A stretch of DNA of 64,000 nt, from the NCBI RefSeq assembly GCF_018613835.1, contig NZ_JAGGPM010000017.1, positions 124,655-188,654 of the forward strand, written 5' to 3'. This stretch comes from Arthrobacter sp. ISL-5 (GTDB taxonomy: Bacteria > Actinomycetota > Actinomycetes > Actinomycetales > Micrococcaceae). The notes beneath the pieces were generated by a model. That model searched no databases, was not told the DNA's origin, and saw nothing but the letters and a program-made list of their open reading frames with translations. Below, piece after piece: positions 2,586-7,337 of this stretch; the stretch's first letter is position 1, and each line of letters opens with the position of its first letter. The position numbers and the translations under genes are program-made.

Positions 2586-2983
2586 GTAAGTGCTGTGTCT
2601 CCTGCGGGGATCGGTCACGCTGCCGTACCGGAAACGGGCGCGCCAGGTCCGGGTCGGTTTGAAAATGTGGTGTGGATCGATTCCTGGTCGATCCTTATCA
2701 GTTTAGCAAGCCCCGCAAAATGTACCGCTCACTGCACCGCTCGCCTCCCGGCAGAACAGGCACCGCGGGGGATGGCCAAAGCAAGAAATCCGGTGGCCAT
2801 CGGCTAAACTTGGGTGGTAAGAGCCCCGGAACTCTTGCGTCTTTGTCCATCGGCCAACGCCGAGGGTGCGGTCGCTGACATTCGGGGCATTCTCATGAAC
2901 GGCGCTGCCTTCAGGCCAGACACTGCGGTGAAACCCCCGGTGACTGAAACGGAAGTCGGCCCGAACGAATGGGGGAGGATCCC
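2586..2983. promoter_or_regulatory. Divergent promoter region between UDG-like gene and purA
   Basis: About 400 nt without a convincing gene. A perfect inverted repeat GGATCGA-N7-TCGATCC lies at 2674-2694 and could be an operator. TAAACT at 2805-2810 is a good -10 candidate for purA and would give a leader of about 170 nt. TTGCTA-type sequence on the minus strand around 2695-2710 may serve the UDG-like gene. No recognised riboswitch was seen. Confidence 0.35.
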
Positions 2984-4273
2984 ATGCCAGCAATCGTTAT
3001 CGTCGGAGCCCAATGGGGCGACGAAGGAAAAGGTAAGGCCACTGACCTGCTCGGAGGCCGCGTCGACTACGTCGTGAAGCCGAACGGCGGCAACAACGCC
3101 GGGCACACCGTCGTCGTGGGCGGTGAGAAGTATGAGCTGAAGCTCCTTCCTGCCGGCATCCTCAGCCCCAACGCGGTTCCCATCATCGGCAACGGCTGCG
3201 TGGTGAACCTGGAGGCACTGTTCCAGGAGATTGACGGCCTGGAGGCCCGCGGTGCGGACACGTCCAAGCTGCGCGTCTCCGCAAACGCGCACCTCGTTGC
3301 GCCCTACCACCAGGTGCTGGACAAGGTCACCGAACGTTTCCTCGGCAGCCGCGCCATCGGCACCACCGGCCGCGGCATCGGCCCGGCTTACATGGACAAG
3401 GTGGCCCGCCTCGGCATCCGCGTGCAGGACGTCTTTGACGAATCCATCCTGCGCCAAAAGGTTGAAGGCTCGCTGCGCCAGAAGAACGAACTCCTGGTCA
3501 AGGTGTACAACCGGCGCAGCGTCGTGGTGGACGAGATCGTTGAATACTTCCTCTCCTTCGCGGAGCGCCTGCGCCCCCTGGTCATCGACAGCACCCTGGT
3601 GCTGAACACGGCCCTGGACGAAGGCAAGGTGGTGCTCATGGAGGGCGGCCAGGCCACGTTCCTGGACGTGGACCACGGCACGTACCCGTTCGTCACGTCC
3701 TCCAACCCGACCGCCGGCGGCGCCTCCGTGGGCTCCGGCATCGGCCCCACACGCATCTCGCGCTCGATCGGCATCATCAAGGCGTACACCACGCGTGTCG
3801 GCGCCGGCCCGTTCCCCACCGAGCTCTTCGATGAGATGGGCATGTACCTGCAGAAGACCGGCGGCGAGTTCGGGGTCAACACCGGCCGTCCGCGCCGCTG
3901 CGGCTGGTACGACGCCGTCCTGGCCCGCCACGCTTCCCGCGTCAACGGCTTCACGGACTACTTCGTCACCAAGCTGGACGTCCTCACCGGCATCGAGCAG
4001 ATCCCGGTGTGCGTCGCGTACGACGTCGACGGCGTCCGGCACGACGAAATGCCCATGACCCAGACCGAGTTCCACCACGCTAAGCCGATCTTCGAGTACT
4101 TCGAGGGCTGGACCGAGGACATCACCGGAGCACGCACGCTGGCCGATCTGCCCGAGAACGCCCGGAACTACGTCCTGGCCCTCGAGAAGCTCTCCGGCAC
4201 GCGTTTCTCCGCGATCGGCGTGGGCCCCGACCGGGACCAGACCATCGTTGTCAACGATCTGATCAACGACTGA
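2984..4273 (+). CDS. purA: Adenylosuccinate synthetase
   Basis: A 429-residue PurA, which joins IMP and aspartate with GTP to make adenylosuccinate, the first committed step to AMP. The N terminus has the GTP-binding, catalytic loop [15 protein letters not shown]. Also present are [11 protein letters not shown] (catalytic His), [10 protein letters not shown], the IMP-binding [12 protein letters not shown] region and the C-terminal GTP-binding residues. The ATG at 2984 has a GGGGGAGG Shine-Dalgarno directly upstream; the upstream in-frame ATG at 2969 overlaps that site and has no ribosome-binding site. It is monocistronic: its own promoter region precedes it and a strong terminator follows. 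Confidence 0.97.
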
Positions 4274-4300
4274 CGTTCCCGGCCATATCCTCAGCAGTTC

Positions 4301-4343
4301 CGACGGCGGCGGGTCACCTCTCAGAGGTGGCCCGCCGCCGTCG
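4301..4343 (+). terminator. Terminator of purA
   Basis: A 20-bp stem (4301-4320 with 4324-4343, one G-T wobble) with a 3-nt loop follows the purA stop by 27 nt. The T tail is weak, as is usual for high-GC actinobacteria. Confidence 0.8.
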
Positions 4344-4405
4344 TTGCCGGCAGCAGGCGGAGTGTCGGTCTTCGGCCGCGGGCGGTCTGCCCTAAGCTCA
4401 CTCAG

Positions 4406-4588
4406 GTGGGAAATCTCAGCACCGATGACAGCGAACGCCTAGCGGTGGTTCCGGTGCTGGACGGTCAGACGTGCATCGATGAGCTGCTCATGGACCTGGG
4501 TGATGTGCTTAGTGTGCACGCCCTCATCCAGATGCTGCCTGAGGCCGGCGTTGACGGCATTCCCGGCGGGCAGCTCCGCCTCTTCTGA
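4406..4588 (+). CDS. Small hypothetical protein, probably leaderless
   Basis: A 60-residue acidic protein starting at GTG. It is not recognised. It shows an amphipathic stretch (CIDELLMDLGDVLSVHALIQML) and ends in GGQLRLF. There is no signal peptide or membrane helix. A TANNNT -10 box (TAAGCT, 4393-4398) lies 7 nt before the GTG and no Shine-Dalgarno is present, the pattern of a leaderless mRNA seen at several other genes here. That promoter spacing is the main support for this being a real gene; otherwise it could be a chance ORF. Confidence 0.45.
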   Translation: MGNLSTDDSERLAVVPVLDGQTCIDELLMDLGDVLSVHALIQMLPEAGVDGIPGGQLRLF

Positions 4589-4662
4589 CCCGCCGGGAGC
4601 CTCCTGACCGAGGCGGGCCCTCCGTCGTTGCACATCCCGTCCCAAGGGAATTCCGGCCGGCG

Positions 4663-4745
4663 CGTAACCTGCGGCCCCCGCGCTTCGATTACCTCTGTGT
4701 AAGCGCCAGGCCGGGGGTTGTCCCCCATCAGCCTCCAGCCCGGCC
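4663..4745 (+). promoter_or_regulatory. ECF-type promoter and 5' UTR hairpin, copy 1 of a duplicated element
   Basis: CGTAAC (4663-4668) and CGATTA (4686-4691) are separated by 17 nt, like an ECF sigma -35/-10 pair. Downstream, GGCCGGG (4709-4715) pairs with CCCGGCC (4739-4745). The loop holds TGTCCCCCATCAG (4719-4731). An alternative stem GGGGG/CCCCC (4713-4717 with 4722-4726) excludes the first. The element ends 29 nt before the repeat-protein start. The same boxes, spacing, stem and loop motif recur at 6688-6770, downstream of the sigma operon. Autoregulation by the adjacent ECF factor is an inference. Confidence 0.6.
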
Positions 4746-4774
4746 TTCAACCAACCAAAGGATGTTTTTTTCTT

Positions 4775-5299
4775 ATGAAGAGTGTTAGCAAGACCACCAG
4801 GATTGCTGTCGGAGCCGCCATCATCGCTGTCGGAGGGTTCTCCGGCATCGGACTGGCCAACGCGGCCCAGGTCTCCGGCTCGCAGCACGCAGAGGTGACC
4901 CCCGCTACGCCCGCCGTCCCCGCTGCTCCCGAGCTCCCGGCTGTCCCCGCAGTTCCGGCTTCCCCCTCGGTCAAGACCCCGTCGGTCAAGGCTCCTGCAG
5001 TCAAGGGCGCCAAGGTTTCCGGTGAAGCCAAGGTTGCGGCCCGCAAGGGCTCCGCCGCCGCCAAGGTTGACGCGACCGCCGCCGTTCCGGCCACTCCCGC
5101 CGTCCCGGCAGTTCCGGGTGGCGCCGGCGTTCCGGCTACGCCTGCTGTCCCGGCGACCCCGGCTGTTCCGGCTGTACCGGCCACGCCTAATGTGCCGGCA
5201 ACCCCTGCCGTTCCGGCTGTTCCCGGCGCTGCAGACAACGTGGCAGCCCCGGCTGTGCCGGCCGTTCCGTCCGCAGACCTGCCGGAGCTCGGCAAGTAG
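4775..5299 (+). CDS. Secreted Ala/Pro/Val-rich repeat protein
   Basis: A 174-residue exported protein. Residues 1-31 are a signal peptide: KTTR, a hydrophobic core, then a cleavage site near LANAA. The mature part is built from imperfect VPATPAVPA-type repeats, densest at about residues 45-60 and 100-165, with a Lys-rich centre (VKTPSVKAPAVKGAK). Such low-complexity sequence suggests an extended, surface-exposed or wall-associated structural protein; no catalytic motif or LPXTG signal is present. The ATG at 4775 has AAAGGA about 13 nt upstream, and the upstream in-frame start at 4718 would place residues before the signal peptide. It follows the ECF-type promoter and hairpin and precedes the sigma operon, so it is probably a target of that sigma factor. 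Confidence 0.75.
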   Translation: MKSVSKTTRIAVGAAIIAVGGFSGIGLANAAQVSGSQHAEVTPATPAVPAAPELPAVPAVPASPSVKTPSVKAPAVKGAKVSGEAKVAARKGSAAAKVDATAAVPATPAVPAVPGGAGVPATPAVPATPAVPAVPATPNVPATPAVPAVPGAADNVAAPAVPAVPSADLPELGK

Positions 5300-5386
5300 G
5301 CACGGACTTTCCCGAATAGGGCCATACGGTGTGCGGCGGCTAGGCTTACTACCGCCGCACACCAGCCGTAAGGGAAGGACAGCTCC

Positions 5387-5935
5387 TTGGCAGTTCAGCT
5401 GACCGACGACGAATTGTCAGCCGCCTTAGCCGGCGATCCTTCCGGTTTTAGCGCCGTCTACAGCACTATTTCCCCCGCAGTGCTTGGCTATTTCCGGGCC
5501 CGTGGCGTTGATGACGCCGAAGCCCTCACGCAGGACGTCTTCGTTGATGTCCTGCCCAAACTCAGTGGCGTCAAAGGCGGTCACTCGGGCCTCCGGACCT
5601 TCATTTTCTCGGTGGCCCACGCCCGGCTCGTCGACTACCGGCGCCGACACGCTAGAACACCCCAGCTGACCGAATACGACCCCCTTGCTGACGAACGGTA
5701 TTCAAACTCCGCCGAGGACGAGGTCCTCGGCTCGCTGGGCGGCATCTCGTCCACTCTTGCCATGCTCAACGACGAGCAGCGTGAAGTCCTGATACTGCGG
5801 ATCGTCGCGGACCTCTCCGTCGAACAAGTGGCAGGCATCATGAACAAGACTCCGGGCGCGATCAAGCAGCTCCAGCGGCGCGGGCTCATTGCCCTGCGCG
5901 AACTCGTCAAGGAAAAGGACTACACACCATCATGA
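5387..5935 (+). CDS. ECF-type RNA polymerase sigma factor
   Basis: A 182-residue sigma-70 family protein with the two-domain ECF layout. Region 2 spans about residues 20-85 (YFRARGVDDAEALTQDVFVDVL, then TFIFSVAHARLVDYRRRHAR). Region 4 spans about 125-175 (LNDEQREVLILRIVADLS, then VEQVAGIMNKTPGAIKQLQRRG), a helix-turn-helix. The start is TTG at 5387 with a strong AAGGGAAGGA just upstream; no ATG/GTG fits as well. The stop overlaps the next start (ATGA, 5932-5935), so the sigma factor and the membrane protein are translationally coupled, as in sigma/anti-sigma pairs. The likely target promoters are the CGTAAC-N17-CGATTA elements on either side; this is inferred. Confidence 0.9.
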   Translation: MAVQLTDDELSAALAGDPSGFSAVYSTISPAVLGYFRARGVDDAEALTQDVFVDVLPKLSGVKGGHSGLRTFIFSVAHARLVDYRRRHARTPQLTEYDPLADERYSNSAEDEVLGSLGGISSTLAMLNDEQREVLILRIVADLSVEQVAGIMNKTPGAIKQLQRRGLIALRELVKEKDYTPS

Positions 5936-6612
5936 GTGTCTCGCCAATAGGCCGGGAAGAGGGGGATATCCAGGCGATCCTCCAGGATTCCGGGTTCGAA
6001 GAGGACACGGACCTTCGCAGGTCGCTGGAAGATTTGCGCGCGTTCGCTCTGGACGGACCACCTGAACCGCGCGCGGACCTCCAAGCCCTGCTGACGCCCG
6101 GCGTCACCAGGCTGGACCTGCGCCGCCGCAGCCGGAAGCGCCGGATGGGCGTCGTTCTTGGCGCGGCTGTGGTCGGTGCCATGGGCCTCGGCGCGGGCGC
6201 CGTGGCTGCCTCCGAGGACTTCCGCCTGAGCGTCAGCCATGCCGTGGTGAAGATCTTCGAGCCGACCAGCCAGACCCCTGCGCCGAACGCCGATGCTGCT
6301 CCGCCCGCGGCCCCTGGCGTGTCGGTCCCGTCCCCGGCGGCGGTGGCGCCGTTTCCCTCGGCAACTCCGTCAAGGTCAGTGACGGCGTCAAAGGCTGCCC
6401 GGCCGCAAGCGCCGGCGTCCGCCACACCGGCTCCGGGCAACGCCGCGGCTGAGCACGGAGGGAGCCAGGCCAAAGCTCCGGCGGTGCCGCTGCGGCCGAC
6501 GACCGTGCCGGCAACCCCCGTGCCGGCCCCGCCCGGCGCCGGCCCAAGGCCGTTTGCCAGCCTGCTTCCGTTGCTTCCCACCCTTCCGGGGACTGTTCCA
6601 GGGAAGCCCTGA
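5932..6612 (+). CDS. Probable membrane anti-sigma factor
   Basis: A 226-residue protein with a cytoplasmic N-terminal part (about 1-65), a basic patch RRRSRKRR, one hydrophobic segment (about 72-93, GVVLGAAVVGAMGLGAGAV) and a long Pro/Ala/Thr-rich tail predicted to lie outside. No zinc-binding HxxxCxxC anti-sigma motif is visible, so the assignment rests on topology and on the 4-nt overlap with the sigma gene. The tail composition resembles the secreted repeat protein 0.6 kb upstream. Alternative: a membrane protein of unknown role cotranscribed with the sigma factor. Confidence 0.65.
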   Translation: MSVSPIGREEGDIQAILQDSGFEEDTDLRRSLEDLRAFALDGPPEPRADLQALLTPGVTRLDLRRRSRKRRMGVVLGAAVVGAMGLGAGAVAASEDFRLSVSHAVVKIFEPTSQTPAPNADAAPPAAPGVSVPSPAAVAPFPSATPSRSVTASKAARPQAPASATPAPGNAAAEHGGSQAKAPAVPLRPTTVPATPVPAPPGAGPRPFASLLPLLPTLPGTVPGKP

Positions 6613-6663
6613 GCCCGACCCCTGGGCCCTACTTCCAGGCCCGGGAAACAGGGCAGAAAAAAG

Positions 6664-6775
6664 TTTTCAAATTTTTTTTGAAAATGGCGTAACCTCCGGG
6701 GCGGCCCCGTCGATTACGTAAGTGAAAGGCCGGGCTGGAATGTGTCCCCCATCAGGTTCCAGCCCGGCCCTTTTT
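6664..6775 (+). ncRNA. Putative small RNA unit, copy 2 of the duplicated ECF-promoter/hairpin element
   Basis: CGTAAC (6688-6693) and CGATTA (6711-6716) again have 17-nt spacing. They are followed by a 13-bp perfect stem (6728-6740 with 6757-6769) and TTTTT at 6771-6775. The 16-nt loop contains TGTCCCCCATCAG (6743-6755), identical to copy 1. No ORF follows on this strand, so a transcript starting near 6722 would be a roughly 55-nt stem-loop RNA. Just upstream is an all-A/T inverted repeat (6664-6671 with 6677-6684) that could be an UP-like element or part of a terminator. Alternative: a plain terminator of the sigma operon, though the shared promoter boxes and loop argue for more. Confidence 0.5.
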
Positions 6776-6842
6776 CTTGCCACCGGCGGCTTCAGCTGCC
6801 GTTGAGGCACACCACCCGCCGAGGCCCGCGTAAGCAGTCCGC

Positions 6843-7337
6843 CTAAGCCAGCACTTGCCGCCTCGAGGAAATGACGCCGGTGTCGAAGCCCGCCAGGTGC
6901 AGGCCGCCGTGGAAGCGCGCATGTTCGATCTTGACGCAACGGTCCATCACCACGTTCAGACCCGCCGCCTCCGCTCCAAGGGCCACGCCCTCATGCCACG
7001 AGCCCAGCTGCAGCCAGAGGGTCTGTGCCCCGGCGGCAACGGCCTCATCCAGGACTCCCGGCAGGTCATCGTGCTTTCGGAAGACGTCCACGATGTCAGG
7101 GCTCTCCGGCAGGTCAGCGAGGGAGGCGTACGTCGGCTGCCCTAGGATTTCCTTCACCACCGGGTTCACGAAGTACACCTTGTACCGGGTGGACGACTGC
7201 AGGTACGTGGCCACGAAGTAGCTGGCCCGGGACGGCTTGTCCGAGGCCCCCACGATCGCGATGGATTTAGCCTGCCGGAGCAGGTTCAGGCGTTCCGGCG
7301 CTGTCGGGCCCTCCCAGGCGCGGTCTGTGGTGCTCAT
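6843..7337 (-). CDS. CoA-binding domain protein (YccU type), paralogue 1
   Basis: A 164-residue single-domain protein with the Rossmann-like CoA-binding fold: AIVGASDKPSRASYFVATYL at the N terminus, VYFVNP, DIVDVFRKHDDLP, and LWLQLGSWHEG with NVVMDRCVKIEH towards the end. Its start at 7337 overlaps the metY stop in an ATGA, so it is the last gene of the acs-sfnG-metY operon behind the SAM riboswitch. Family members bind CoA or acyl-CoA, but their biological role is unclear. A homologue at 12438 lies at the other end of the operon, divergently transcribed. Role here unknown; coupling to acyl-CoA or sulfur metabolism is inferred from position only. Confidence 0.85.
   Translation of the reverse strand: MSTTDRAWEGPTAPERLNLLRQAKSIAIVGASDKPSRASYFVATYLQSSTRYKVYFVNPVVKEILGQPTYASLADLPESPDIVDVFRKHDDLPGVLDEAVAAGAQTLWLQLGSWHEGVALGAEAAGLNVVMDRCVKIEHARFHGGLHLAGFDTGVISSRRQVLA

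Follow-up and report, generated by a model that had tools for sequence, protein, structure and literature searches.

Organization of the locus

The window, i.e. the whole 64,000-nucleotide stretch of Arthrobacter sp. ISL-5 DNA analyzed here, carries a short gene cluster in which a gene that we take to be purA (named from its sequence, and used as a tblastn query) is followed by a promoter and hairpin (copy 1), a secreted-protein gene, an ECF sigma factor gene with a membrane protein gene, and a second promoter and hairpin (copy 2):

2969..4273, + strand: ORF, presumably purA, upstream neighbor
4663..4691, + strand: copy 1 promoter, CGTAAC-N17-CGATTA (-35 CGTAAC at 4663-4668, -10 CGATTA at 4686-4691)
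4698..4749, + strand: copy 1 hairpin, 5' leader of the secreted-protein gene, without a T-run past the stem
4719..4731, + strand: copy 1 loop motif, TGTCCCCCATCAG
4775..5299, + strand: ORF starting with the ATG at 4775, secreted protein rich in Pro, Ala and Val (signal peptide judged by eye)
5387..5935, + strand: ECF sigma factor, 182 aa (TIGR02937)
5932..6612, + strand: ORF overlapping the sigma gene, membrane protein and presumed anti-sigma factor (one hydrophobic stretch by eye)
6688..6716, + strand: copy 2 promoter, CGTAAC-N17-CGATTA (-35 CGTAAC at 6688-6693, -10 CGATTA at 6711-6716)
6724..6775, + strand: copy 2 stand-alone hairpin (stem to 6774) ending in the T-run TTTTT (6771-6775)
6743..6755, + strand: copy 2 loop motif, TGTCCCCCATCAG

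Direct reading bore out the promoter boxes, their 17-nt spacing, the stems and the shared 13-nt loop described in the initial annotation; both hairpins are present, the stem of copy 1 being imperfect. The RNA starts that it had placed at 4698 and 6722 were shifted, on the basis of the spacing common to homologues, to about 4699 and 6724, where transcription would begin. The 13-mer TGTCCCCCATCAG occurs exactly twice in the whole 5.35 Mb genome, both times at this locus (reversed pattern, 0 matches), as does the extended promoter CGTAACCT-N9-18-CGATTAC (control, 0 matches). A third covariance-model match in the same genome corresponds to the opposite strand of the near-palindromic copy 2. Copy 1 folded with -27.4 kcal/mol (z -4.2) and copy 2 with -34.9 kcal/mol (z -6.7), each better than all of 200 dinucleotide shuffles. 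In the copy 2 fold, part of the U-run pairs with the 5' A-tract; a simple generic terminator scan of the window flagged neither hairpin.

The sigma factor scored 64.2 bits against TIGR02937 (cut-off 42.9), placing it in the sigma70-ECF superfamily, with Pfam region 4 above its cut-off and region 2 slightly below. Its best NCBIfam model was TIGR02952 (BldN family), with a score of 79.7 bits that lies far below the equivalog cut-off of 206.45, and the protein was not assigned to that family. No Pfam family matched the secreted protein or the membrane protein, and the anti-sigma role of the latter is presumed from its position.

The promoter-hairpin unit accompanies the sigma factor across the genus

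A covariance model of the hairpin (R1), the E-values of which are rough, detected the element in 197 of 206 genomes of the genus. Extended to 396 genomes of the order, R1 matched in 17: nine of the same genus, six from three other genera of the family and two distant ones. The six genomes from other genera displayed the same promoter followed by an ECF sigma gene; at least two further g2 genomes were without an R1 match. The order-level matches in G407 and G512, where the promoter pattern was absent, were set aside as probably due to chance. None of the Rfam 15 families reached its gathering score in the seven loci scanned, and we found no description of the element in titles and abstracts of a literature lying mainly outside subscription journals. 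In the vicinity of the locus, a SAM riboswitch-like match was seen on the minus strand of L035 (763-882) and L184 (345-464), at 39.4 bits against a gathering score of 44.4.

With the sigma factor counted as present when its best E-value was below 1e-40, hairpin and sigma were concordant in 203 of the 206 genomes (196 with both, seven with neither); two of the three discordant genomes carried the sigma only and one the hairpin only, as a weak match (E 0.0033). The corresponding Fisher p of 1e-10 is too strong because of physical linkage and the relatedness of the genomes. The surroundings of purA in four sigma-less genomes contained neither the promoter (two mismatches allowed) nor the loop (one mismatch). 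The initial annotation had held that its reading would fall if homologous loci kept the sigma operon without the elements, or if the stems failed to covary. It largely survived, with strong covariation (see below) and only two of 198 sigma-bearing genomes devoid of a model match. In one of these, G140, promoter and C-loop leader lie at another contig end, and the mismatch is thus explained by a contig break. The other, G175, whose sigma is 50% identical, seems genuinely exceptional. Its sigma gene is preceded, at a distance of about 945 nt (L252), by a CGTAAC-N17-CGAT box with a small, different hairpin after it, which has a GGGAAAAA-type stretch in place of the C-loop.

A protein scan for sigma loci retained 80 of 88 loci, 75 from Arthrobacter, Pseudarthrobacter and Paenarthrobacter and five from Bacteroidota; the 75 loci evidently share many genomes with the set of 206, and the two sets are not independent. 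R1 matched the sigma strand in 73 of the 75 loci; in the remaining two (L180 and L193), a contig end truncates the region ahead of sigma. The five Bacteroidota loci, whose sigmas are unrelated (27-33% identical), gave no match. The strict promoter pattern CGTAACYT-N15-CGATTAC was found in 63 of the 206 genomes (reversed control, 1). Promoter plus loop C-run occurred in 72 of the 75 loci, at 80 sites, with a box spacer of 17 nt at 79 of them and a C-run beginning 29-31 nt past the -10 box at all 80. In L191, the first hairpin lacks the C-run, yet a covariance-model match is present. The proposal that both units are promoters of the ECF factor between them thus gained partial support from the identity of the two promoters and from the genus-wide co-occurrence of hairpin and sigma; on this proposal, the neighboring sigma would read both promoters.

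The promoter pattern was also observed without a hairpin. It precedes a protein kinase gene in L102 (Pkinase, 140 bits) and L104, with similar DNA in L056, L077 and L103, and this gene is possibly a further member of the regulon of the sigma factor. Another gene that it precedes, in L091 and L094, has a Tat-like start of the SRRSF type and a phosphoesterase domain (PF04185, 232 bits for L091); L090, L093 and L095 contain similar DNA. In L085, L086, L087 and L088, the promoter is present a second time in the genome, here with tandem C-loop hairpins and with other ORFs behind it; the ORF in L088 encodes a DUF4192 protein (62.6 bits).

Stems covary around a conserved C-rich loop

To compare the hairpins, we built a gap-free, loop-anchored alignment (A2) of 26 of the 37 distinct units, leaving out near-duplicates as well as L117 and L142, in which the register or loop context differs. 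The 16-pair helix was 92.1% paired compared with 81.8% in shuffled alignments and carried 39 double changes compared with 8.7, none of 500 shuffles being as good on either count; such comparisons with shuffles may be inflated by the relatedness of the sequences. Sliding the helix reduced pairing to 25-50%, and RNAalifold predicted 15 pairs, 11 of them with double changes. All 37 distinct units gave a similar picture (89.9% paired vs 80.6% shuffled; 48 double changes vs 10.7; 0/500). An earlier alignment (A1) had mixed stem registers: RNAalifold gave no pairs on it, and its double-changed pairs were not distinct from shuffles (73/500), its other covariation measures being so.

The loop reads CCCCCAUC in most of the genus and in g10, and CCCCCAAC in g2 and g9. 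CCCCCA was present in all 45 promoter loci of one set, drawn mostly from the top model matches. Each copy in the window is a single hairpin with five C in its loop; in the window's wider clade, with its tandem leaders, the C-run varies from four to eight and some loops lose the AU. With its conserved C-rich loop in a stable hairpin, the element shares a feature of C-rich-loop base-pairing sRNAs of the B11, GsrN and RepG kind. That a single-stranded C-run is kept while the stems change points to recognition through the loop.

Stand-alone and leader forms

In the relatives, the commonest layout was a single hairpin, usually with a T-rich tail, ahead of sigma. In the window's clade, the secreted-protein gene lies between the leader hairpin and sigma, the leader hairpin is devoid of a T-run and a T-tailed copy 2 is found behind the operon. 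The leaders of a sister group contain several hairpins. Two tandem hairpins precede sigma in G057, G182 and G069. In one set of 45 loci, 41 had sigma downstream of the promoter and the other four were copy-2 units; since 41 loci share this placement, the sigma of most of the genus (roughly 55% identical) appears to be the counterpart of that of the window. The secreted-protein gene was found between promoter and sigma in 29 of the 73 loci with an upstream promoter. It also occupied this position in the leaders read from 50 genomes whose sigma is 76-99% identical. Forty-seven of these leaders were readable whole and displayed, in minimum-energy folds, one C-loop hairpin (20 leaders), two to four (26) or none (one); the remaining three genomes had promoter and leader at another contig end. 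Copy 2 was present in 16 genomes of this group, in 15 of them with the promoter in the fetched locus; that of G020 is a model match about 3.5 kb beyond sigma. Judging from this distribution across genomes, the layout of the window, with copies on both sides, would be a local derivation. An order purA-hairpin-sigma in every locus was rejected, with purA upstream in 27 of 41 loci (1.5 kb flanks) and in 53 of 73, and in light of this recount only the order promoter-hairpin-sigma is claimed to be general.

The multiplied hairpins bear on one alternative, namely that the loop binds an RNA-binding protein and that single or tandem hairpins set its free amount, much as CsrB-type RNAs titrate CsrA. 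The occurrence of up to four C-loop hairpins per leader by folding and the retention of the loop while stems change are both consistent with titration of this kind, but the C-run varies in length among leaders, which suits pairing with G-tracts at least equally, and we regard a protein partner as improbable.

The two forms of the hairpin differed in their tails. The mean number of T in the ten nucleotides past the GC stem was 5.9 for sigma-proximal hairpins (41 of 43 measured) and 5.8 for copy 2 (8/8), as opposed to 3.0 for the first leader hairpin (29/29); TTT within 8 nt of the stem was found in 25/41, 8/8 and 0/29, respectively. These counts replaced a count made by folding (T in 8 nt: sigma-proximal 4.5, leader 1.1, copy 2 3.0) that was distorted by tail pairing. 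The pattern would suit terminated small RNAs, some of them weak cases, at the sigma-proximal and copy 2 positions, and read-through leaders for the first leader hairpins. It also bears on whether the hairpins simply terminate purA and the sigma operon, with promoter-like boxes ahead of them by chance. Intergenic GC-rich stems with T-rich tails are what such terminators look like; their loop sequence, however, need not be kept, nor would a promoter-to-loop distance held to 29-31 nt be expected of them, the T-run is missing from all 29 leader hairpins, and purA is not upstream in 20 of 73 loci, some of which are cut by contig ends. We therefore disfavor this explanation as very unlikely.

A more serious competitor is a purely cis-acting element. 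The sigma operon would be autoregulated and the hairpin its leader or attenuator, controlling either the amount of sigma mRNA that gets past a weak terminator or the stability of that mRNA; copy 2 would be a relic or the operon terminator, and no RNA would act in trans. The promoter sits only 111-285 nt before sigma in 43 loci, the T-tails of sigma-proximal hairpins are often short, and in the leader group every first hairpin stays ahead of the sigma operon. The stretch separating hairpin and sigma shows no obvious vegetative -10 box, 3 of the 43 loci having -10-like boxes there compared with 0.14 per locus in shuffles, and no separate vegetative promoter for sigma is claimed. An attenuator, however, leaves unexplained both the conserved loop and copy 2, a promoter-hairpin-T-run unit without a gene of its own in 16 genomes, and we consider this explanation rather unlikely. 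Between hairpin and sigma, 24 of the 43 sigma-proximal loci (L212-L240) also contain a dyad, TTACYGNNGGGTAA, that looks like the operator of some regulator.

Search for targets of the loop

The exact complement of the loop, GATGGGGGAC, occurred at eight non-self sites in its own genome, mostly mid-ORF, vs 14 for the reversed control, and was thus not enriched. A search of six genomes for GATGGGGGA followed by ATG within 2-11 nt returned 32 sites, 30 of which became loci; the reversed control returned eight but is unfair, since the reversed pattern contains a stop codon. The sole recurrent site, found in 6/6 genomes, lay where the end of ispG overlaps the start of the following ORF. Of 30 further genomes, 28 allowed this end to be read and two yielded fragments only. 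Its G-track was kept in all seven sigma-less genomes with a readable end, ATGGGGGA was also present in the hairpin-less G301, and in g2 and g9, where the loop is CCCCCAAC, the site was GATGGGTGA or absent, with no change matching that of the loop. Being equally conserved without sigma and not following the loop, the ispG end was dropped as a target, its conservation being explained by coding overlap together with ribosome binding. GATGGGGGAGGCCGATG, from the 3' terminus of ispG (L274 and homologues), hardly varies among the genus genomes read, even at wobble positions; the probable reason is that it contains the start of the next ORF. No conserved G-run was found in the sigma operon. With this search having failed, the model of G-tract pairing discussed below is founded on analogy.

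Discussion

Conserved throughout Arthrobacter and in some relatives, the element has the look of a regulatory RNA that is so far undescribed and apparently under the control of the neighboring, stress-type sigma factor. Comparison among genomes shows the link between promoter, hairpin and sigma, the covariation of the stem, the conservation of the loop and the difference in T-tails. The explanation that we place first, while holding it a little short of probable, is a family of structured RNAs driven by the ECF sigma factor, in which a C-loop sRNA of ~50 nt that also serves as an mRNA leader would act by pairing with G-tracts. RNA polymerase carrying the neighboring sigma would start about 8 nt past CGATTA, and the transcribed GC-rich hairpin would expose its C-rich loop, typically UCCCCCAU. 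Where a T-run follows the hairpin, transcription would end to yield a predicted small RNA of ~50 nt, presumably sigma-dependent, whose terminator loop is the active site; where there is none, as in copy 1 of the window and in the tandem leaders, the hairpins would form the 5' leader of the operon mRNA. Most likely, the loop would pair with G-tracts near the ribosome binding sites of putative target mRNAs, as in B11 and GsrN, and the sigma factor would thereby gain an RNA arm beside its direct targets. Counted against this reading are 18 of the 41 measured sigma-proximal hairpins, which are without TTT within 8 nt of the stem, as well as the terminator scan that flagged nothing in the window, the varying loops of the tandem leaders, the failed target search and the exception G175.

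A bolder version, to which we give limited credence, is that a single hairpin unit takes interchangeable forms, a terminator-loop sRNA and a multiplied sigma-operon leader, that address one shared partner through the same loop, with copy number tuning the balance between species. Sharing a partner in this manner would make the leader both a product and a sponge of the RNA arm of the sigma factor. Copy 2 might then compete with the leader for that partner, as the initial annotation had proposed.

If the sRNA reading is true, common soil bacteria possess a genus-wide regulatory RNA made under an ECF sigma factor and unmatched by Rfam in the scanned loci, and a small, clean system becomes available for the action of C-rich terminator loops in Actinobacteria. 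The natural series of one hairpin, two hairpins, tandem leaders and an extra stand-alone copy may further illustrate how an sRNA and an mRNA leader interconvert.

The element has relatives in kind among known RNAs. 6C RNA is defined by two stem-loops with about six or more C in one RNA (PMC4046766); each copy of the window is a single hairpin with a shorter C-run and falls outside this definition, tandem-hairpin relatives existing elsewhere. The 6C model RF01066 was absent, even at E 10, from positions 4200-7000 of the window and from L035, L101 and L184, although it was also below cut-off in a Corynebacterium glutamicum control; weak sub-cut-off matches in the Arthrobacter genome fell on other contigs. 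As in 6C RNA and B11, where one of the C-rich hairpin loops is described as sitting in an intrinsic terminator (PMC12395582), the Arthrobacter hairpins present C-rich loops, but their stand-alone form has one hairpin per RNA, an ECF promoter and a loop, CCCCCAU, that is not a pure C-run. In mycobacterial B11, the closest case in Actinobacteria whose mechanism has been worked out, the C-rich terminator loop is reported to pair with G-tracks near ribosome binding sites (PMC12395582).

LhrC of Listeria, a multicopy sRNA induced by envelope stress, is described as having redundant CU-rich loop sites that include a terminator loop (PMC4132741). The likeness lies in the multiple copies and in the loop sites, the putative terminator loop among them; LhrC, as described there, is larger and under a two-component system. 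We know of no leader form of LhrC. RepG of Helicobacter, too, uses its terminator loop. This sRNA, from an unrelated organism and promoter, is described as targeting a G-repeat in an mRNA leader (PMC8295292).

With regard to the promoter, the -35 box CGTAAC is identical to that reported for Streptomyces BldN promoters (-10 CGTTGA, spacer 16; PMC2375139), and BldN is the best NCBIfam family of the sigma; the Arthrobacter -10 box is CGATTA, the spacer 17 nt and the sigma far below the BldN cut-off. GsrN of Caulobacter is described as an sRNA that depends on an ECF-type sigma factor; its C-rich loop is most conserved and its gene usually lies near the sigma/anti-sigma locus in Caulobacteraceae, albeit not in C. 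crescentus (PMC5869019). The Arthrobacter element resembles it in its link to an ECF-type sigma, its conserved C-rich loop and its position near the sigma locus; GsrN belongs to a different phylum and, by the same account, pairs through its 5' loop, and no sequence relation is claimed. By analogy, a mode of action like that of 6C/B11 or GsrN is our best reading. The element would act like a known kind, the C-rich-loop sRNAs; what we regard as new is that an ECF promoter is coupled to a terminator-loop unit and to a leader form with multiplied hairpins.
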